NCBI RefSeq assembly: GCF_032878975.1
Contig: NZ_CP043875.1
Coordinates: forward strand, 2,224,370 to 2,288,369
Direction of reading: 5' to 3'
From: Methanoplanus sp. FWC-SCC4
Lineage (GTDB): Archaea; Halobacteriota; Methanomicrobia; Methanomicrobiales; Methanomicrobiaceae
Length of the DNA stretch: 64,000 nt
This document shows, in pieces, positions 5,095 to 47,104 of this stretch (its first letter is position 1; each line of letters begins with the position of its first letter). The notes under the pieces were generated by a model that made no database searches, was not told where the DNA came from, and saw only the letters and a list, made by a program, of their open reading frames with translations. The translations under genes were made by a program, and so were the position numbers.

Positions 5095-5384
5095 TTAAAA
5101 GTATAATAAATTTTGTCAGGCAAAAATAAAATGAGATGTATATTATTTAAACGTGACCTGAAAAATTGTGTCGTGTGCAGGAACCTTCGGTTTTGAATTA
5201 TCATCGTAATTAGGGATATCAAAAAGTATTATAAAAGGTCAAATTTCTGAAAAATTATTTTCATATTATATTTATTCAGATTATCTTTAAGAAAAGTTCA
5301 TTTTAGGTGGATCTAAAATATTATCGTCACAATTTTTAAGGATTGAGGTATGAACAGGGATATCTGGTCGAAAGGTGGAAAATA

Positions 5385-6002
5385 ATGGAGTCATTAACGG
5401 GTTTTTTTGCATTGTCGTTTATAATCGGTCTTACCGGTGCAATTGCCCCCGGGCCCACACTGATTGCTACCATTAAGTCCTCTCTTGATACCGGATGGGT
5501 GGCAGGACCTAAAATCTCCGCAGGCCATATGCTAATAGAGGCATTTTTTGGATTAGTCATAATTTACGGATTTTCGATTTTCCTTTTGGAATATACAAAT
5601 ATAATCGGGTTTGCAGGCGGTGTGGCACTAATAGTCTTTGGAATATTAAACATAAAATGTGGGATTTCACCGGTTTTACCCGGAGAAGAGGCCGTTTCTG
5701 TTACAAATCCTTATCTGGCCGGCATTATAACTTCAGCCTCAAACCCTTACTTCTGGATATGGTGGCTTACGGTAGGCAGCGGTTTTCTCCTTGACGGATT
5801 AAAGGCAGGCACCATATTTGCGGCTGCATTTATAACAGGTCACTGGATGTCTGATCTATGCTGGTTTTCAGCTGTTTCAACATGTACGTCACGTGGGAAA
5901 AACATGATGAACACAAAAATATACGGATACATAATCATCTTATGCGGAGTTTTTCTGGTGATGTTCGGGTTATACTACATCATCTCATCATATGGAATAT
6001 AG
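5385..6002 (+). CDS. LysE-type translocator
   Basis: A 205-residue membrane protein with six hydrophobic segments. The N-terminal LTGAIAPGPTLIATIKSSL contains the glycine-rich APGPT motif that marks the LysE/RhtB amino-acid exporter superfamily. A second family trait is the ITSASNPYFWIWWLTVG segment in the middle. It would export an amino acid or similar small compound. The start is set at ATG 5385, which has GGTGG six bases upstream. A TTG frame opens 42 bases earlier but has no ribosome-binding site. Confidence 0.78.
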   Translation: MESLTGFFALSFIIGLTGAIAPGPTLIATIKSSLDTGWVAGPKISAGHMLIEAFFGLVIIYGFSIFLLEYTNIIGFAGGVALIVFGILNIKCGISPVLPGEEAVSVTNPYLAGIITSASNPYFWIWWLTVGSGFLLDGLKAGTIFAAAFITGHWMSDLCWFSAVSTCTSRGKNMMNTKIYGYIIILCGVFLVMFGLYYIISSYGI

Positions 6003-6114
6003 AAAAAATGCCATATGAAAACAGTTCAGTATTGTTTTCAGTCCGTGATTTCACAAATATTGTCGTGATATTTTAAAATCGAATATTTCGGCAGTGATCT
6101 GTTTGTTTCATGCA

Positions 6115-6407
6115 TTGAACCGTTTTGTTAAACCTGATAAACGGGAGTATTTATTTCATATATATAGTCCCGGATGAAACTTAGTTATCAGAGTGTTGCC
6201 GGGATTTGATAAAATATGGAAATATTCCGTTTTTTCAAATCGCCGGATGACACCGGAACAGACCAGCATTGTAAACCAGCATAATAAACTCCAAAAACCA
6301 GAAAATACCAGATTAGTGTAATAATAACAAACCAAAAAACCAGTTTTTTCAAACCAGTTAAAACTGAATTGGAGACTCCTGTTTTTCAGGAAAAATCCAT
6401 TCAGTTT
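6115..6407 (+). ncRNA. Candidate structured RNA, array unit 1
   Basis: First of three diverged copies of the same element. A conserved upstream block starts TTGAACCG at 6115 and runs into a TATA box (TTCATATATATAG, about 6157-6167). The transcript would start near 6187-6193. A strong hairpin follows (6193-6253): GTGT pairs with ACAC, CCGG with CCGG and GATTTGA with TCAAATC, with a small apical GGAA/TTCC helix. Next comes an A- and C-rich single-stranded linker holding many ACCAG words and the motif ATAAACTCCA. A second hairpin (6361-6407) pairs AAACTGAAT with ATTCAGTTT around an inner CCTG/CAGG. No open frame of useful length fits. Transcription is inferred only. Confidence 0.6.
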
Positions 6408-6487
6408 GTGGATTTAATACATTTGTTCTCTTTAAAAATTACGTTTTAATACTGGTATGATTCAGGGTTTAATTTTTGGTACATTAG

Positions 6488-6742
6488 TTGAACCGGTCTG
6501 TTAAATGTGATAAACGAAAGTATTTCCTTCATATATATAGTCCCGGATGAAACTTAGTTATCAGAGTGTTGCCGGGAGACTAAAATAAAAAAGGGATGTC
6601 CTTTTTTAAGTCCCCGGAGTGACACCGAAACAGACCAGCATTGTATAACCTCCATTATACGAAAATTACAATAATAACAAGTCAGTTTTAAAAAAAGGCC
6701 ATAAGGGATCATTTCTCCTTTTTTTAGGAGCTCCCTTTTTTT
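6488..6742 (+). ncRNA. Candidate structured RNA, array unit 2
   Basis: Second copy, 373 bases after the first. The block TTGAACCGGTCTGTTAAA, the TATA box (about 6529-6540) and the segment GAAACTTAGTTATCAGAG are kept. Hairpin I (6566-6625) keeps GTGT/ACAC and CCGG/CCGG, but its upper helix is GACT/AGTC, topped by an A-run/T-run helix around GGGATGTCC. The linker is shorter and contains ATAACCTCCA (6645-6654). Hairpin II (6703-6737) pairs AAGGGA with TCCCTT and CTCCT with AGGAG and is followed directly by a T-run, like an intrinsic terminator. Sequence outside the paired and promoter parts has drifted far from unit 1 while the fold is kept. Confidence 0.6.
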
Positions 6743-6806
6743 GTTTTTTCATTTAAAATCACAGATATCTAACCTGAATCATTCACGGTATATTTTAATA
6801 CATCAA

Positions 6807-7052
6807 TTGAACCCTGTTGTTATATGTGTTAAACCGGAGCATTTACTTCATATATATAGTCCGGGATGAAACTTAGTTATCAGAGTGTTATCAGGAAATT
6901 AGAAATTGGGAAAAAATTGTCTCAAAGCCTGCATAACACCCGATAGACCAGATAGTAACAAACCAGAATAATAACCTCCAAAAAAATACCAAAAACCAGA
7001 ACAATCCAAAAATACTCCAGTCCTGACCGGGTGGCATTATGTGTCATCCGGT
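6807..7052 (+). ncRNA. Candidate structured RNA, array unit 3
   Basis: Third copy, 319 bases after the second. It starts TTGAACCC with the TATA box at about 6847-6858, then the same GAAACTTAGTTATCAGAGTG. Hairpin I (6885-6939) has a changed but fully paired lower stem: GTGTTAT with ATAACAC, then CAGG with CCTG. The linker again has AGACCAG, repeated ACCAG words and ATAACCTCCA (6971-6980). Hairpin II (7026-7052) is an unbroken 11-pair stem, ACCGGGTGGCA with TGTCATCCGGT, loop TTATG. The base changes relative to units 1 and 2 preserve pairing, which argues for selection on RNA structure. Confidence 0.6.
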
Positions 7053-7140
7053 AAAAACCTCAGTGGTTATTTCCATGAAATATATGCACGGGCAGTGTGG
7101 CTTGTGTCTGTTTCTTACATTATCTTCTGTTAAAAATCAA

Positions 7141-7186: not shown

Positions 7187-9532
7187 ATGGCTTTACGCTC
7201 TGATTGGTTTCTCATTTTACTGTTATTGTTTTTGATATTTCCTATAATGGTTCCATCTGTTTCATCGCTTCAGACCGGATGGAATTTTACGATAGTTGAT
7301 AATGGCAACTCGGGTTCATTATGCTCCCTTGCTTATAACCCAGTAACCAAAAATCCTGCAATTTTATATACCGATTCTGAAGGCAAACATCTTTATTACA
7401 GATATTATGATGAAGGCTGGCAGGAGCCTCTCGATACGGGAATTTTAGCGACCGGTTCGATCTCATTTGATTTTGATGAATCTGGAAATGGCCACTGTAT
7501 CGGTTATTCAGTTAACCAAACTCTCTCCAGGGGCAAAATATACTATAGCCTGATAAAAGACGGCAGAGTCGAAAGCACTGAAATGATTGACAATAATGTG
7601 GGCGTTCTTCAAAGCATCTCAATAAAGGCAGTTCAGGATCAAACCCCTTACATATCTTTTTCAAATATTTCAAACAAGCTCTCCTTATATAAAAGAGAAG
7701 ACGAAAACTGGTTCTCTTTCTTCTCCTCCAGCTATGGTGACAGCTCAGGTCAGTTTTCATCTCTATCGATAAACCCCGCAACAAAAATGCCCTCTATTGT
7801 ATATTCGTATTCTTTATACGGAATTAATAAAATAAAGCTCATATATGCGGAATTTGATGGTGAAAAATGGAGTGAGAAATCTGTAAAAAATTCGGAAGGT
7901 TATGGATTTTTTTGTTCTCTTGACCTAAACAGCAGCGGTAATCCTTCTATTAGTTATACACGCAGTTTTGACAAATCACTTTACTATGCCTTTAGGGCCG
8001 GCGGGGTATGGACAAATCAGATTGTTGACGGAAGCAGAAATATTGATATTCCCGGTTATACCTCCCTTGACTTTGACAGTTCGGACTGCCCGCATATCTC
8101 ATATTATAACACAACATCGCATGATCTGATGCTTGCCTCAAAAAACATATCAGATGAGGGTTCCCTCTGGAAAATCCTTCCTTTATATAGTGAGGGAGAT
8201 TCCGGGATGTGCAGTTCGCTAAAAATCAATCCGGAATCCGATCTGCCTTCAGTTGCATTTGTATCCGACAACAAACTTATGTTTGCAGAAGAAGGATTTG
8301 TTCCAAAAAGCAGTTTTGACGCATCACCTTTGAGTCCGGTTTTGGGAGAAGAAACTCACTTTTCAATTTCATCAGAAACAGAAGAAACGAAATACTCATG
8401 GGACTTTGGAGACGGTTCCGTTTCAGGTGAAGAAACGCCTTCCCATCTCTACAAAAATCCAGGAATTTATGATGTTTCAATGTCTGCAAAAAGCAGGTTT
8501 GGAGAGTCAGTAACGGAGAAAACCGGATATATAATCGTTAAACCTTATGCAAATTTTCATGCCGGCAAAACGACCGGAACAGGAAATCTTACAGTATCTT
8601 TCTTTGATGACTCAAAAGGTGCATCAGCGTGGAACTGGAGTTTTGGTGACGGCGAGTGGTTTAATACAACAGACGAAGGACTAAAAAATCCTGTTCATTC
8701 ATATGAAATCCCCGGGTTTTATGATGTAACTCTTATTGCATCGAACGGCAGTCTTAAGACTGAAATTATAAAAAACGGATATATTGTTGTTTCTTCTATA
8801 ACAGAGAAGGACCTTAATATTGAGGCACAGTCTCCTTTAGGGGATGCCGGGAACAGAGATACAAATGTCATGTCCGCCAAAAAGCTCAATGCAGGAGATT
8901 CTGTAAGCTTCAGCCTGAATAAAGGTTCCTTATCTGAATTTTCTTTTTTTACGCAGTCTGATCTTACCGAGATCCTGATTACGATAAAGGAAGAAAAGAA
9001 TCTCCCCGCCGGCATCCCGGATCCGAGAGTTCCGGTTTACAGGTATGAAACCCCGGAGGTTTTCAGGGCGGATAAGGATCAGGTCAGCAGTCCTGAATAT
9101 GAATTTAAAATTCCAAAGAGTTGGATGGATGAAAATGATCTTATACCTGCCGATATCCTATGCCTCTCCTATGAGTGTAAAACGAATGAGTGGAAGAGCT
9201 TTCAAACGGTTTACACCTGCTTTGACGGTGAAAACTGCATATTCAAAGCAAAAACATACGATTTAACAATGATTGCACTGGGCGGGAAAAAGACCTGTTC
9301 ACAAAATACTGACAAATCTTCTGATGAAAAGCCTGTTTTGGAAGATAATTCTGTTTTAGAGAAGCCTGCAGATAAGAGCGGCGGGGGAGAAATGCAGAGT
9401 ACGAGAAATCCTCCCGGATTAATGAACACTGATCTAAAAAAGATGCCCCTTCCATTGTTTTTAAATCTGGCTGCGATATTTGTGTTTTTAATATTCGGAT
9501 TTTTCAGTGCAAAAAGAAATAAAAAGCGGTGA
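7187..9532 (+). CDS. Surface protein: seven-repeat propeller, two PKD, PGF-pre-PGF, TM anchor
   Basis: A 781-residue exported protein. Residues 1-28 form a signal peptide. Residues about 30-370 hold seven degenerate repeats of the form SLxxNPxTxxPxIxY (for example SLAYNPVTKNPAILY, SLSINPATKMPSIVY, SLDLNSSGNPSISY, SLKINPESDLPSVAF), which suggests a seven-bladed beta-propeller. Two PKD domains follow (about 374-454 and 455-537), each with a WxFGDG core (YSWDFGDGS, WNWSFGDGE). Residues about 538-690 match the PGF-pre-PGF domain of archaeal surface proteins. A Ser/Lys-rich stretch leads to one TM helix near 753-773 and a basic end. It probably sits on the cell envelope in adhesion or S-layer assembly. 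It directly follows the RNA array. Confidence 0.78.
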   Translation: MALRSDWFLILLLLFLIFPIMVPSVSSLQTGWNFTIVDNGNSGSLCSLAYNPVTKNPAILYTDSEGKHLYYRYYDEGWQEPLDTGILATGSISFDFDESGNGHCIGYSVNQTLSRGKIYYSLIKDGRVESTEMIDNNVGVLQSISIKAVQDQTPYISFSNISNKLSLYKREDENWFSFFSSSYGDSSGQFSSLSINPATKMPSIVYSYSLYGINKIKLIYAEFDGEKWSEKSVKNSEGYGFFCSLDLNSSGNPSISYTRSFDKSLYYAFRAGGVWTNQIVDGSRNIDIPGYTSLDFDSSDCPHISYYNTTSHDLMLASKNISDEGSLWKILPLYSEGDSGMCSSLKINPESDLPSVAFVSDNKLMFAEEGFVPKSSFDASPLSPVLGEETHFSISSETEETKYSWDFGDGSVSGEETPSHLYKNPGIYDVSMSAKSRFGESVTEKTGYIIVKPYANFHAGKTTGTGNLTVSFFDDSKGASAWNWSFGDGEWFNTTDEGLKNPVHSYEIPGFYDVTLIASNGSLKTEIIKNGYIVVSSITEKDLNIEAQSPLGDAGNRDTNVMSAKKLNAGDSVSFSLNKGSLSEFSFFTQSDLTEILITIKEEKNLPAGIPDPRVPVYRYETPEVFRADKDQVSSPEYEFKIPKSWMDENDLIPADILCLSYECKTNEWKSFQTVYTCFDGENCIFKAKTYDLTMIALGGKKTCSQNTDKSSDEKPVLEDNSVLEKPADKSGGGEMQSTRNPPGLMNTDLKKMPLPLFLNLAAIFVFLIFGFFSAKRNKKR

Positions 9533-41284: not shown

Positions 41285-42565
41285 ATGAGAAAAATAATAA
41301 CACTGACGGCATTAGTGCTTGTTTTTTTGTCTGCGGCTGTCACGCCCTGCCTTGCGGGTGATAAATATTATACTGACGGACCCGTGATCACCGTTTCCGT
41401 ATCCGGAAGCAATGAACTTTTGGCCGGTGCGGATTCCAGACTGAACCTTCTTGTTCAGAACAAGGGCCTCATTGACATGAAACTTGTGCAGAACCGGTAC
41501 ATGACACCTGATTATCTTCCAAACAGTGCAAAATCGGTTGTTGTGACACTGAAGCCCGGTGATTCCCCGGCTGTTGTCAAATCAGACCCGCAGGTTATCG
41601 GGGATCTTTCATCAGGACTGACAAAAACCGGAACTTTCGATGTTTATATCCCTGAAGGCGCAAAATCCGGACGTTATTCAATGACTGCTGTTGTTGAGTA
41701 TGAATATATGGAAAACTCCGAACAGGTCGGGACTGATGCAATATCATATTATTTTAAAACTGTCAGAAGGGAATACCCTGTAAGCATTGTCATCAGGCCG
41801 TCTGTTGTTCTGGAGATATCAGATGTGGTGTCGGATTCCCTTAATGCAGGAGGAGAAGGCTACATTGAGATGACAATCAAAAACACCGGAACGGATGATG
41901 GCAGAAATACTGCCATATATATCAGTCCTACCGGATACAGCCCGATAACTCCTATTGAGGACAGCATATATGCGGGGGATTTCAAAAAAGGGGATGTAAT
42001 AACCCCGAGGTTTAAGGTTTCAGTGTCAAAGGATGCCGATCCACAACAGGAATACCCACTTAGGGTCTTTGCAGTTTACAAGGACTACGAGGGTAAGAGC
42101 GCAAAGTCAGCACCGGTGACTGTCGGTGTCTCTTTTGGCGGCAGGATAAAGTTTGAAGCGGTAAGCGGGGCGGCAGTTGCTTATCCGGGCAGGGAAAACC
42201 TGATTCATGTAACATACAAAAACACAGGGGATGCAACCGCATATCAGGCTCTTGGAAGAATAAGTGTCATTGATCCTTTCTCAAGCGGTGACAGCAATGT
42301 TTACCTTGGCGACATGTTGCCCGGAGAGACAAAGGAGGCTGTTTACAAGATCAGTGCTGATTCCGGTGCAACCATCAAGGAATATTCACTCGAGTCCGAG
42401 ATAAGATACAATGACATTGAAGGCAACAATTATGTTTCAGATACTGTCAAGGTCATAATTTCCGTGCAGCCGGACAGTGCAGGATATCTGTATATTGGAA
42501 TACCTGTTATTGCCGTAATCCTCGGAGCAGGGTTTTTTGTGTACAGAAGGAAAAACAGCGCCTGA
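41285..42565 (+). CDS. S-layer-like exported protein with CARDB/NEW3-type domains (1)
   Basis: A 426-residue exported protein of the COG1361 type. It has a signal peptide (residues 1-25, ending CLAGDKYY), three immunoglobulin-like beta domains with repeated patterns (LNLLVQNKGLIDMK, IEMTIKNTGTDDGR, IHVTYKNTGDATAY) and a C-terminal membrane helix (IGIPVIAVILGAGFFVYRR). It is probably anchored in the membrane with the domains outside. The start is ATG 41285 with GGAG upstream; a frame opening at 41246 adds an implausible leader. The next gene is a paralogue. The archaeal protein may form part of the envelope or a secretion complex. Confidence 0.8.
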   Translation: MRKIITLTALVLVFLSAAVTPCLAGDKYYTDGPVITVSVSGSNELLAGADSRLNLLVQNKGLIDMKLVQNRYMTPDYLPNSAKSVVVTLKPGDSPAVVKSDPQVIGDLSSGLTKTGTFDVYIPEGAKSGRYSMTAVVEYEYMENSEQVGTDAISYYFKTVRREYPVSIVIRPSVVLEISDVVSDSLNAGGEGYIEMTIKNTGTDDGRNTAIYISPTGYSPITPIEDSIYAGDFKKGDVITPRFKVSVSKDADPQQEYPLRVFAVYKDYEGKSAKSAPVTVGVSFGGRIKFEAVSGAAVAYPGRENLIHVTYKNTGDATAYQALGRISVIDPFSSGDSNVYLGDMLPGETKEAVYKISADSGATIKEYSLESEIRYNDIEGNNYVSDTVKVIISVQPDSAGYLYIGIPVIAVILGAGFFVYRRKNSA

Positions 42566-42573
42566 TTCCCGTT

Positions 42574-42613
42574 AAAAAAGATTCCCTGAAAAATTATTTC
42601 AGCAATCTTTTTT
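42574..42613 (+). terminator. Terminator hairpin between the two S-layer-like genes
   Basis: AAAAAAGATT (42574-42583) pairs with AATCTTTTTT (42604-42613), and the inner CTGAAA/TTTCAG (42586-42602) extends the stem. It lies 8 bases after the stop of the first gene, which suggests that the two paralogues are at least partly separate transcripts. Confidence 0.65.
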
Positions 42614-42631
42614 GAAAGTTGAGGAAAAAAA

Positions 42632-43936
42632 ATGAATGAATTATTCAGACGGTATTTTGGTCTGCTTCTTGTCGTGCTTTTGATCTCAGGCATTTTTACA
42701 TCGCCTGCAGCAGCTGCCGGCAAGCAGTTTACCGGAAGTGAGCCAAAGCTATATGCAACACTTTCAGGGCAAAATGAGTTTGATCCGGGAACTGATGCGG
42801 TTTTGGAAATTGTCCTGGAAAACCAGGGGACTGACAACGAGGCACTTGTTGGTTCTTTATATGCTCCCTATCAGATAAATCCGACAACAGCGCTTAAAAC
42901 GACTGTGAATCTTTTAAGCGGTGATGTTCCTGCAACAGTTAAGACAGCTTCCTATATGCTCGGAGATCTGCCTGCCGGATATAGTGCTCCTGCAAGGTTT
43001 TATGTTCACATTGATGAGAACGCTCCTGCCGGGGATTATGAACTAAATCTCAGGACTGAATACAGCTACACTTTTGCAGAGACAATGATAGAGCCGGGCC
43101 GCCGGGACTATATCTACAGGGACAAAACGGTTGATTTGAATATCCCTGTCAGGATAAAGGGGGTTGTAAAGCCTGAGGTGATCTCGGTTGAGACGCGAAA
43201 TATGTATCCCGGGCATACCGGCGATATTATTCTTAAGATCAGAAATGCAGGATATGGCGTTGGTTTAAAGTCTTCCGCTGTTCTGAGCGGAGTTTCCGGT
43301 CACATAAAGCCTGTCGGCGGAAGTGTCTGTATCGGTGATTTCAATCCCGGGGATGTTTCAACTCTCAGCTTCAAGGTTTATGTGGACGATTCAATAGACA
43401 GCGGCGTCTACCCTGAAGAGTTCAGAATTGTCTACACTGATGAGTTCGGTGCTGAAAAAGAGTCAGTTTCTGAGAAGATTGGTGTTTCTGTCGGAAAGGG
43501 TGCAAAATTTAGAATAGTTTCGGGCAAAAGTCTGATGAGGCCCGGTGAAACCGTTACAGTTCAGGTTGAGTTTAAAAACACCGGAGATTCGACGGCTTAC
43601 GGTGCAAAGGCAAGGATTATCCCGGTGAAGCCTTTTTCGGCAGCTACTGACAGTGCACTCCTTGGGGATGTAAAGCCGGGGGAAACCGCCTCTGCAATGT
43701 TCACACTCAGCCTTGCTTCTGACGCACTGCAAATCCCTTACGGGCTTGATACGGGAATAAAGTTCCGTGATGAATATGACAATCTGGTCCTTTCTGATCA
43801 GATGATGCTTGAAATAGATGGTGTTTCCGGAAACGAGATTGTTTCCCTTGTAACCAACCCTGTTTCAATTGCGGTGATTTTCGGAATAATTGCCTGTGCA
43901 GGCTATTATGTTTTCACCCGGAGAAAAGTTCCCTGA
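42632..43936 (+). CDS. S-layer-like exported protein with CARDB/NEW3-type domains (2)
   Basis: A 434-residue paralogue of the preceding protein. It has a signal peptide (LLLVVLLISGIFTSPAAAAG), three repeats of the same beta domain (LEIVLENQGTDNEA, IILKIRNAGYGVGL, VQVEFKNTGDSTAY) and a C-terminal helix IAVIFGIIACAGYYVFTRR with a basic end. The domains are ordered exactly as in the first gene, so this is a whole-gene duplication that has diverged. Ribosome-binding site GAGG lies 9 bases ahead of the ATG. Confidence 0.8.
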   Translation: MNELFRRYFGLLLVVLLISGIFTSPAAAAGKQFTGSEPKLYATLSGQNEFDPGTDAVLEIVLENQGTDNEALVGSLYAPYQINPTTALKTTVNLLSGDVPATVKTASYMLGDLPAGYSAPARFYVHIDENAPAGDYELNLRTEYSYTFAETMIEPGRRDYIYRDKTVDLNIPVRIKGVVKPEVISVETRNMYPGHTGDIILKIRNAGYGVGLKSSAVLSGVSGHIKPVGGSVCIGDFNPGDVSTLSFKVYVDDSIDSGVYPEEFRIVYTDEFGAEKESVSEKIGVSVGKGAKFRIVSGKSLMRPGETVTVQVEFKNTGDSTAYGAKARIIPVKPFSAATDSALLGDVKPGETASAMFTLSLASDALQIPYGLDTGIKFRDEYDNLVLSDQMMLEIDGVSGNEIVSLVTNPVSIAVIFGIIACAGYYVFTRRKVP

Positions 43937-43992
43937 AATAAATAATTTTTAATTGGTTTCTTTTTTTAGGTTTGAGAGACAATTATTTCTCA

Positions 43993-44535
43993 ATGGACAT
44001 TATTGAAGAGGGTTTTTTAGAGATTGTGCGGCAGATTGATGAGCTAAAATCAAAGGAAGAGTCCGCATCCTCCAGAATTTTAGAGGGAAAGGATGTTCTG
44101 CTTGAAAGAATGGGAAAGCTTTCCGTTCCTGTTGCAAAATCAGCCGGAATAAATTTACTTGTCCGTGCGAAAATTGACTCCATGGGGGGTCTTTACGACA
44201 AGGTTTACACGGAAGAGAAGATGCTTGTTCTTGGCAAAACCGAGCCTTTGCCTTACAGGCCGGATGATGCATCAAAACCTGTCACAAACCAGTTCTGTGT
44301 TCTCTCGGAAGACGGAATGTTTTACGAGTTCATGTACTCGGCAGATGAGCACATAACTGACTCATATAAGCAGGAATTAACCGCAGACGAGGCTGTATCC
44401 ATTTACGGTCTTGACATTATGTATATGCTTTACAAGGCTCTCGAGCAGTATCTGACTGAAGAAAAAGAGCTTGTAATGGCGCTTGAAAGAACCATTGCCT
44501 TTGTCTTTGAAGATATAGGTATGAAAGAGCAATAA
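43993..44535 (+). CDS. Hypothetical protein downstream of S-layer-like genes
   Basis: A soluble protein of 180 residues not recognised as a named family. It is mostly helical, with a coiled-coil-like start (EEGFLEIVRQIDELKSKEESASSRI), a central basic strand region (GLYDKVYTEEKMLVLGKTEPLPYRP) and an acidic C-terminal helix. There is no signal peptide, membrane segment or metal motif. ATG 43993 is chosen; a TTG at 43972, close behind AGG, would add seven residues. It follows the S-layer pair by 57 bases on the same strand and may share their transcript. Confidence 0.6.
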   Translation: MDIIEEGFLEIVRQIDELKSKEESASSRILEGKDVLLERMGKLSVPVAKSAGINLLVRAKIDSMGGLYDKVYTEEKMLVLGKTEPLPYRPDDASKPVTNQFCVLSEDGMFYEFMYSADEHITDSYKQELTADEAVSIYGLDIMYMLYKALEQYLTEEKELVMALERTIAFVFEDIGMKEQ

Positions 44536-44537
44536 AT

Positions 44538-44560
44538 CCCTACCCGGGGACTTTTTTTTA
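44538..44560 (+). terminator. Short terminator hairpin
   Basis: TCCC-TACC-CGGGGA followed by a T-run forms a small GC-rich stem directly after the hypothetical gene. Confidence 0.45.
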
Positions 44561-44617
44561 AAAACAAAGACAGAAAAAAAATGTTATTCGTGATTTGGTT
44601 TGCCCTGTAGGAATTTT

Positions 44618-45139
44618 TCAGCAGTTTGCATCTGAAGCCGCTTTTGCGTTTTCATAAATTTCTTTATTATCCGGTATGATGCAGTTTCGTATTATTTTTT
44701 CAAGGTCTATCCAGATTATGATTTTATTTGTTCCTTTTGGGCCGGCTTGTGAGATACTTTCCTGTTTTATAATTCCTTTAACAAAGGCCTCTCCTGATAT
44801 GGCATTGTCCATCTTTTCGATGTCATCTTCGGATACCCGGATTACGCTGTGAACATCGTCAACTATTATTCCTGTTTTTGAGCCGCCTGCGGCCTCGGGC
44901 ATCAGGACAATAATCTTCTGATTTATTATCTCATCTTTCTCTGAAAGGCCCATTATTTTTCTGAGATTGAGGATGTTTGTGATCTCTCCACGGAGATTAA
45001 TTATGCCTTCTATAAACGGGGGTGTGCAGGGAATGGGTGTGATTGGGAGGATTTCTATAATCTCCCTTGTCAGCTGTATATCAAGTGCATACAGGGTGCC
45101 GCTGATCTCAAATTCAACGACGTCAGTTATTTCTGTCAT
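44618..45139 (-). CDS. cheW: CheW-like chemotaxis coupling protein
   Basis: A 173-residue single-domain CheW homologue. Family features are EFEISGTLYALDI at the N-terminus, the LPITPIPCTPPFIEGIINLRGEI segment (short motif GIINLRG) and GIIVDDVHSVIRV. CheW links a methyl-accepting protein to the CheA kinase; no CheA is in the window. It lies 12 bases after the soluble MCP gene on the same strand, so the two form an operon and presumably one signalling unit. Confidence 0.9.
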   Translation of the reverse strand: MTEITDVVEFEISGTLYALDIQLTREIIEILPITPIPCTPPFIEGIINLRGEITNILNLRKIMGLSEKDEIINQKIIVLMPEAAGGSKTGIIVDDVHSVIRVSEDDIEKMDNAISGEAFVKGIIKQESISQAGPKGTNKIIIWIDLEKIIRNCIIPDNKEIYENAKAASDANC

Positions 45140-45151
45140 GGGCTTTTCACT

Positions 45152-47104
45152 TCACTCGATTTTAAAAACTTTCATATCTTCTTCGAGCTGTAATGCCATT
45201 TCATTGACTTCATGCATTGCACTTGCAATCTCTTCCGAGGATGCGCTTGATTCTTCGGCAAGTGCGGCAAGCTCTTCGATTCTGCCCTGTGTGTCATGGG
45301 TGAGGTCTGCACCTTCTTTTGCATCCTGAGCAACATTTGTTGCAATCTGGGCCTGGTCCTCAATTGCCTTTGTTATCTCCTCAACTGCGTTTGTGGCGGC
45401 GGTTGCCTCCTTTACAATCTGGTTGAGTGCATCTATTGTCCTGTTTACGCCGGCCACGCCTTCATTGAGCTCGGAGTTTGCAGTTTTTATGCCGTTTGTT
45501 GTCTTTTCACTGCTCATCCTCACTTTCTCAATCACTTTTTCAATGTGATCAGTTGCACTTCTTGCCTCTGCGGCAAGATTTTTGACCTCTCCTGCAACGA
45601 CTGCAAATCCCCTTCCGTGTTCTCCTGCACGGGCGGCTTCAATTGCAGCGTTTAATGCCAGGAGATTAATCTGGTTTGCGATGTCTGTGATCATCTTTAC
45701 AATATTAGTGATCTCATGCATCTCCTGGTTTAATTGTTCGATCTCGGACACACTGTTGTGGGTGATCTCGACAACTGACTCCATCTGGCTGTGAGTCTGT
45801 TCTCCTATTTTCTGTGCCTCAATACCTGTTTTTGTAGCTTCCCTGACTGCTCCTAAAACCTCTTCGGAACTGCCTGCAATTTCCTCATTACCTGCCGACA
45901 TATCAGCCATCTGTCTTGAAACATCCTCTATTTTGTCCATCAGTTTTTTGCTGATTTCTGCGGTCTTCTGGCTTGTAAGTGCAACCTGTTCAACAGCCTT
46001 TGTGACCTCGTCTGATCCCTTGCTTGCATCCTCCATTGCCATGTCGATTTTTGAAACGGCTTTTTTTACGTTTAAAACCGAGTTTTTAAGCTGATCCCCA
46101 AGGTTGTCAAGTGCATCCCTGAAGATGACGAGTTTTCCGCTGACTTTTACTTTAGTGTCAAATCTGGCATTATAGTTGCAGTCTGCAAACTCTGATGTAA
46201 CCCTTATAGCCTCTTTCATAGGTGTTACAAGGACGTCCATTGTCTCATTCACTCCCTGTATCACCTCTTTATATGCTCCGGAGTGGGCCGAGTCATCGGC
46301 ACGGTAGTTGATCTCTCCCGAGGTTGCATTCTCAACAAGTGTGCCTATCTCGTTTATGACTTCAATCAGATTTTTGCGGATACCGTTGATTGTTTCTGTC
46401 ATAATAATCTGTTTTCCGGCGAGTTCTCTCATCTCTTGTGAAAAGTCACCTTTGGAATACAGGTCAAGTATTTCAAAAGCCTCAAAAACCGGATTGCTTA
46501 TTTCATCAATAGTATCGTTAATACCCTGTGCAATTTTTGAATAAACCCCACTCAGCTTTTCAGGATGGCATCTTGCCTCTATGTCCCCTTCTTTGTGTCT
46601 TTTTGCCAGGCCTGAAAGGTCACTTTCAAGAATGTTTATCTCCTCAATTAGCAAATTGAGGTCATTTTTGATAGTATTGAAATAGCCCTTCCTTTCGTGT
46701 GTGATTTTTTGAGGGATTTCTCCTCTGCCTATCTTTTCTATGAATGTGGCAGTTGAGGTTAAGGGTTCTGCGACATCTTCAAAGGTATCGTTGAAGCTTT
46801 TTAGAATGTCTGTCCAAATGCCCTTTAACTCGGACATGTCTGCACGAATGTCAAAATTGCCTTCATCTGCAGCTTTTTTCATCTGTTTTGCTGAATCGTG
46901 CACAAGAGCAATAGTGTCCGAGCAGTTTTCGATATTTTTGACAATCTCCCAATTGTTATTGTGAAATTCCTGCGAGAGTGACCTGGGGTTTTCTCCCGCT
47001 GCAATTGCCTTTATAAAATCATTTGCAAGTTTCAGCTGAATTCTCAGCTCTTCGTTGTTATCCTGCGTATTATCGTTAAATTTATTGTCACTTTTTGATT
47101 TCAC
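45152..47104 (-). CDS. Soluble methyl-accepting chemotaxis protein with HAMP array
   Basis: A 650-residue chemoreceptor without any membrane segment. Residues about 70-350 hold several HAMP-like repeats, recognisable by PLTS, PVFEA and PMKEA motifs each followed by a heptad helix and a G[DE]-rich loop (SGDI, KGDFS). Residues about 390-640 are the signalling domain, with the conserved tip [16 protein letters not shown] and [15 protein letters not shown]. It would sense a cytoplasmic or HAMP-relayed signal and act through CheW. The start is GTG 47104 with GGAAGTGA as ribosome-binding site. It is divergent from the HTH-PAS sensor at 47297. Confidence 0.87.

Follow-up and report, generated by a model that had tools for sequence, protein, structure and literature searches.

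A family of putative small-RNA genes behind a shared operator, with a candidate anti-Shine-Dalgarno motif, in Methanomicrobiaceae

How do described small RNAs act on the ribosome-binding sites (RBSs) of their targets, and how are they controlled? Staphylococcal C-rich-motif sRNAs (e.g., IsrR) use single-stranded C-rich seeds against Shine-Dalgarno (SD) regions, and the bacterial sigma-E-dependent sRNAs MicA and RybB are inducible and co-regulated with envelope-related genes. The RNA units reported here lie in a 64,000-nt stretch of DNA from Methanoplanus sp. FWC-SCC4 (the window). They share a C-rich, putatively SD-directed seed with the staphylococcal RNAs, although those are bacterial; with MicA and RybB they would share inducible co-regulation with envelope genes, but their candidate regulator is an archaeal winged-helix/FHA protein associated with a receptor kinase. 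In Methanosarcina mazei, an anti-RBS sequence in sRNA154 and sRNA41 masks the RBSs of target mRNAs (PMC5867862); thus, an anti-RBS mechanism has archaeal precedent. Those RNAs and the present family are intergenic methanogen small RNAs with an anti-RBS sequence, putative in the present case. However, sRNA154 and sRNA41 belong to the nitrogen-limitation response of Methanosarcina, whereas the present family has another operator, is built from a 5' hairpin, an A/C-rich linker, and a 3' hairpin, and occurs in tandem copies linked to a LysE gene; the two loops described for sRNA154 (PMC5867862) also set the family apart from it. The Sulfolobus archaellum network (ArnA, ArnR, and ArnC/ArnD) is archaeal phospho-signalling in which FHA proteins occur with a phosphatase and with kinases of the eukaryotic type (PMC5300886), a combination shared by the cassette discussed below. 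That network, which acts on the archaellum, keeps FHA and DNA-binding functions in different proteins; here, a single protein has both, and small RNAs are among the candidate targets. Our literature search found no description of this sRNA family or regulator system. It is rare for an archaeal small RNA to come with known promoter logic, a defined seed, and a candidate regulator. In this case the sequence offers all of them, and they would tie an FHA/receptor-kinase system of so far obscure purpose to translational control by RNA in Methanomicrobiaceae.

The initial annotation proposed three tandem, diverged copies of a structured RNA gene, each transcribed independently from its own TATA box. 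A repeat finder recovered the copies as one family (D1) at 6102-6226, 6475-6599, and 6794-6918, which are 77-78% identical over 125 nt and spaced by 373 and 319. Each unit has the layout that had been reported, in which the upstream block is followed by the TATA box and start region, then by the 5' hairpin, the A/C-rich linker, and the 3' hairpin. TTGAACC, TTCATATATATAG, and GATGAAACTTAGTTATCAGAG are unchanged across the alignment of all three. TTGAACC had been read as an element in itself; it is present but forms the left half of a palindrome. This operator, TTTAACC-N4-GGTTAAA in its full form, typically starts 40 bp before the TATA box, and the thirteen promoters that carry it align without gaps save for one base. 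All features here are on the forward strand. In unit 1 the operator (TTGAACC-N4..-GTTAAA; 6115..6132) is identified by alignment with the 12 other promoters, by the regulon-wide palindrome, and by its fixed distance from the TATA box (6157..6166); the same promoter alignment places operator and TATA box at 6488..6505 and 6530..6539 in unit 2 and at 6807..6824 (an imperfect palindrome) and 6849..6858 in unit 3. Because a conserved promoter, operator, and start block precede every copy, each unit is probably transcribed on its own. The predicted start lies within CAGAGUGUU, and the predicted transcripts, drawn from the conserved start block CAGAGTGTT and the hairpins, span 6190..6425 (3' end approximate), 6563..6750, and 6882..7065 (3' end uncertain). 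The three starts lie 3 nt ahead of the first base pair of hairpin I, which agrees with the initial placement of the start at the hairpin base. Directly upstream is a LysE-family exporter gene (5343..6002; Pfam LysE, E 9.6e-31), a conserved neighbor.

How widespread are these RNAs? A DNA search of the family returned the first relatives, in three genomes belonging to a single other genus and in one more genus; sensitivity came from this search and from a sequence-only promoter model (R1), since an exact-core search across the order matched only our genome plus one site with two mismatches. In total, the family comprises 22 RNAs in 10 genomes that we take to be Methanomicrobiaceae (this name and the labels Methanoregulaceae-type and Methanolacinia for relatives' genomes are provisional), and pairing is kept among them. 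It is LysE-linked in seven genomes including the present one, the same exporter gene lying directly upstream of the RNA in the six others, with two tandem copies in G037, G060, G019, and G007 and a single copy in G091 and G071. Three further genomes (G083, G087, and G123) have one copy each, adjoining an XRE/DUF2178 pair, and G037, G060, and G007 have two dispersed extra copies each. In another family of the order, five genomes have a leader-type version that keeps the promoter, the start block, and the hairpin. A scan of a genome-contig collection matched two Methanomicrobiaceae metagenome-assembled genomes; five bacterial matches were judged to be chance. R1 matches in other families at E 0.01-0.1 were excluded from membership, and one candidate (G007:C1:691136) was rejected because it sits in apparent coding sequence.

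The family could not be assigned to a known one, in keeping with the initial annotation, which could not name it. Rfam 15 gave no match to the locus at the gathering threshold, Rfam over 14 homologous loci returned only a tRNA, and a permissive search gave chance-level matches only; a known Rfam family was therefore rejected. The two CrcZ (RF01675) matches, with 10.3 and 11.1 bits against a gathering score of 95 (E 2-4), are also at chance level. Homologues with kept pairing support the original reading of three independently transcribed small RNAs of one family, although that reading had overlooked the regulon role of the operator and the ACCUCC motif described below. The units are almost certainly real small-RNA genes of a family absent from Rfam.

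Does selection act on the RNA or on the promoter alone? Hairpin I, reported as strong, folds far better than shuffled sequence in units 1 (6193..6253; z -4.45) and 2 (6566..6624; z -5.34) and moderately better in unit 3, where it is closed by GUGUUAU/AUAACAC (6885..6938; z -2.51). Across genera, compensatory changes keep this hairpin from the predicted transcript start onward. Positions 4-12 are paired in nearly all of 23 RNAs while the letters vary on both sides, with exchanges of A-U/G-C, U-A/A-U, and U-G/C-G/G-C. In a hand-made alignment, 93.9% of outer-stem cells are paired and four of the seven pairs have double changes; the covariation score of this stem was reached by 2 of 500 shuffles, with arms picked from predicted folds, which favors pairing. 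The first 110 nt of 15 representatives also fold better than shuffles (combined p ~1e-13). Compensatory change and fold excess together indicate selection on the RNA and not on the promoter alone. Duplicated promoters in decay, with no function as RNA, would fit the promoter block being the best conserved part while the linkers diverge fast; since the hairpin covaries through compensatory changes and ACCUCC is kept across genera, we consider such a decaying array highly improbable. The second hairpin, claimed for every unit, is more uneven: weaker in unit 1 (6365..6403; z -1.6) and strong in unit 3 but lacking a T-run (7026..7052; z -3.71). The reported terminator-like end of unit 2 is present as a hairpin with a T-run (6703..6750; hairpin z -1.3).

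What do the linkers contain? They vary in length and sequence between relatives. The ACCAG-rich linker of the initial description is found in unit 1 (six words) and unit 3 (three), but unit 2 has one such word only. Among non-redundant linkers, ACCTCC occurs in 13 of 19 against 1.35 expected from dinucleotide shuffles; ACCAG (17 seen, 3.1 expected), AACC (68 against 35.6), and ACC (97 against 68.8) also exceed expectation. The remaining top words belong to the 3' hairpin seen in the G037/G060 type, and, leaving these aside, ACCUCC is the most widely kept linker word. The 16S rRNA in the window ends in GGATCACCTCCT; ACCUCC is therefore the anti-Shine-Dalgarno core. It lies at 6648..6653 in unit 2, where a perfect 6-bp stem presents CCUCCA in its loop (GUAUAA-CCUCCA-UUAUAC) and CCUCC has an unpaired probability of 0.99, and at 6974..6979 in unit 3 (unpaired probability 0.96). 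ACCUCC was not found in unit 1, whose linker (6262..6360) has the ACCAG words, which are not anti-SD. As in anti-RBS sRNAs, each unit has an intergenic promoter of its own (conserved TATA box, operator, and start block), and an unpaired SD-complementary sequence is found in units 2 and 3 and is absent from unit 1. From these sequence features, the chance that ACCUCC masks SD sequences seems to us somewhat below even. GGAGGU stands at the assigned start of only 2 of 48 window ORFs of at least 120 aa, so candidate targets would be a subset of genes. Another operator-driven RNA, conserved between two genomes of one genus, has a 5' hairpin and the 7-mer CACCUCC.

The main rival to SD masking is that the RNAs are protein decoys with CsrB/CrcZ-like logic, in which AACC, ACCAG, and ACCUCC words between A-runs titrate an RNA-binding protein. 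Several copies per genome, the many spaced ACC-type words above expectation, and unit 1, with six ACCAG words and no ACCUCC, would fit a decoy. Yet the top kept linker word, G037/G060 3'-hairpin words aside, is the exact anti-SD hexamer, which unit 2 carries as a single loop copy, and the number of words is very variable, falling to one ACCAG in that unit. GGA, the CsrB/RsmZ-type signal, is not clearly enriched (GGAGG, 2 against 0.85 expected in non-redundant linkers), and the CrcZ matches are no better than chance. We consider a decoy role unlikely.

Could the transcripts instead be mRNAs, or dual-function RNAs, for very small proteins, with the hairpin as a 5' untranslated element? In five genomes of the Methanoregulaceae type, this promoter and hairpin are followed, ~200 nt into the transcript, by a conserved ORF of 66-69 aa, so a noncoding RNA is not the only possible output of the module; moreover, hairpin I of units 1 and 2 and of some relatives has an ATG or GTG at its 3' base. 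In Methanomicrobiaceae, however, the ORFs differ in frame and in length (18-61 codons between near copies) and mostly lack an SD, unit 3 has no such ORF, and the 66-69 aa protein is unmatched in our genome. No ORF of at least 60 aa overlaps the units, in line with the initial annotation, which saw no convincing protein frame, and a conserved small protein in the window copies was rejected because no ORF is conserved among Methanomicrobiaceae members. A coding role is improbable, more so than a decoy. The Methanoregulaceae-type protein has the core MPxxGWIREIAxSENWRTTTIVxRHRD (four loci; transcript +198 to +430), and a two-codon ORF (ATGCCATGA or similar) precedes and overlaps its own.

Is the operator confined to these RNAs? 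R1 finds further sites in our genome, down to E 1e-13: ahead of a second RNA type (46646), a leader with a 30-aa membrane peptide (47273), a lipoprotein (47707), an 88-aa orphan (1060852), an operon of an orphan and an XRE gene (1901438), a secreted Ig-like protein (1964733), and an ABC-transporter operon (2005865). The Ig-like and XRE sites are found again at the corresponding genes of a second genus. Searching 2.31 Mb for strict palindromes gave six sites, against none in a reversed control; four are at promoters, and the other two, inside genes, were set aside. Because the same operator stands ahead of other RNAs and of envelope/stress genes, these form a regulon. Sites upstream of an archaeal basal promoter suit an activator, and the position of the operator points to one here. 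The second RNA type (L067 2226-2330 and five further loci) has a 5' hairpin and then a strong SD (GGAGGUGAUG or a close variant), with a stop codon after 2-8 codons; it could pair with the ACCUCC of the sRNA family or trap ribosomes. The thirty-residue membrane peptide MKQIELKTAVIIHMIALMVLLGTIAMAGAA (L067 2980-3072) lies behind a 150-nt leader and the same operator.

Which protein might bind this operator? Just upstream of the 46646 site are genes for a PP2C phosphatase, an ArsR-like winged-helix protein with an FHA domain (HTH_5 + FHA; 43260-44039), and an 811-aa NosD beta-helix protein with a kinase domain (NosD + Pkinase). Orthologs of the winged-helix/FHA protein with at least 70% identity occur in exactly the 12 family genomes with strong sites (R1 matches that reach 1e-10 or better), and six of the seven genomes without a match to the protein also lack an R1 match at E 0.1. 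Genera with 50-57% identical homologs have a weaker site ~2.4 kb beyond the regulator gene. This protein probably controls the sRNA genes; co-occurrence and linkage make the assignment a strong lead, not proof, and shared ancestry could account for part of the co-occurrence. An XRE regulator with a site at its own operon (L071, L085, and L123) was also considered as the activator, and the winged-helix/FHA protein does better on both linkage and co-occurrence. The three genes stand in a row (L145:4432-8596; 42431-46595 in our genome), the last encoding a receptor Ser/Thr kinase; conserved in several genera, they are apparently an undescribed archaeal phospho-signalling cassette.

How might these parts work together? 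Each unit would encode a trans-acting small RNA about 185-235 nt long. The winged-helix/FHA protein, as the likeliest activator, would bind TTTAACC-N4-GGTTAAA upstream of the TATA box and turn the sRNA genes on, together with further RNAs and envelope/stress genes. Transcription would begin at CAGAG, the 5' hairpin would guard the 5' end of the RNA, and the 3' hairpin, with a U-run in some copies, would end it. The unpaired A/C-rich linker would expose ACCUCC and the lineage-specific ACCAG words as seeds, and pairing of ACCUCC with the SD of target mRNAs would block their translation. Inducible, trans-acting sRNAs that mask RBSs are the likeliest mechanism and, as a whole model, close to an even prospect in our judgment. 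A broader, eukaryote-like signalling scheme, in which the extracellular beta-helix receptor kinase acts through PP2C and the FHA activator to drive multicopy anti-SD sRNAs and SD-bearing RNAs with 2-8-codon ORFs, as an envelope/redox stress response at translation initiation, is more doubtful.

The genes around the RNAs give hints of the inducing signal. Rubrerythrin and glutaredoxin/thioredoxin reductase genes lie nearby in several genomes and msrA adjoins four of the five Methanoregulaceae-type copies, hinting at redox or envelope stress. In several genomes (e.g., L132 6397-7012), a gene for a DUF2178 membrane protein, in most cases accompanied by an XRE regulator gene, lies a short way upstream of the LysE/RNA locus. 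Surface-protein genes lie downstream of the window copies (window 7187-9532) and upstream of the dispersed copies in G037 (L032 and L034), and the surface proteins of the window and of L034 both contain PGF-pre-PGF domains.
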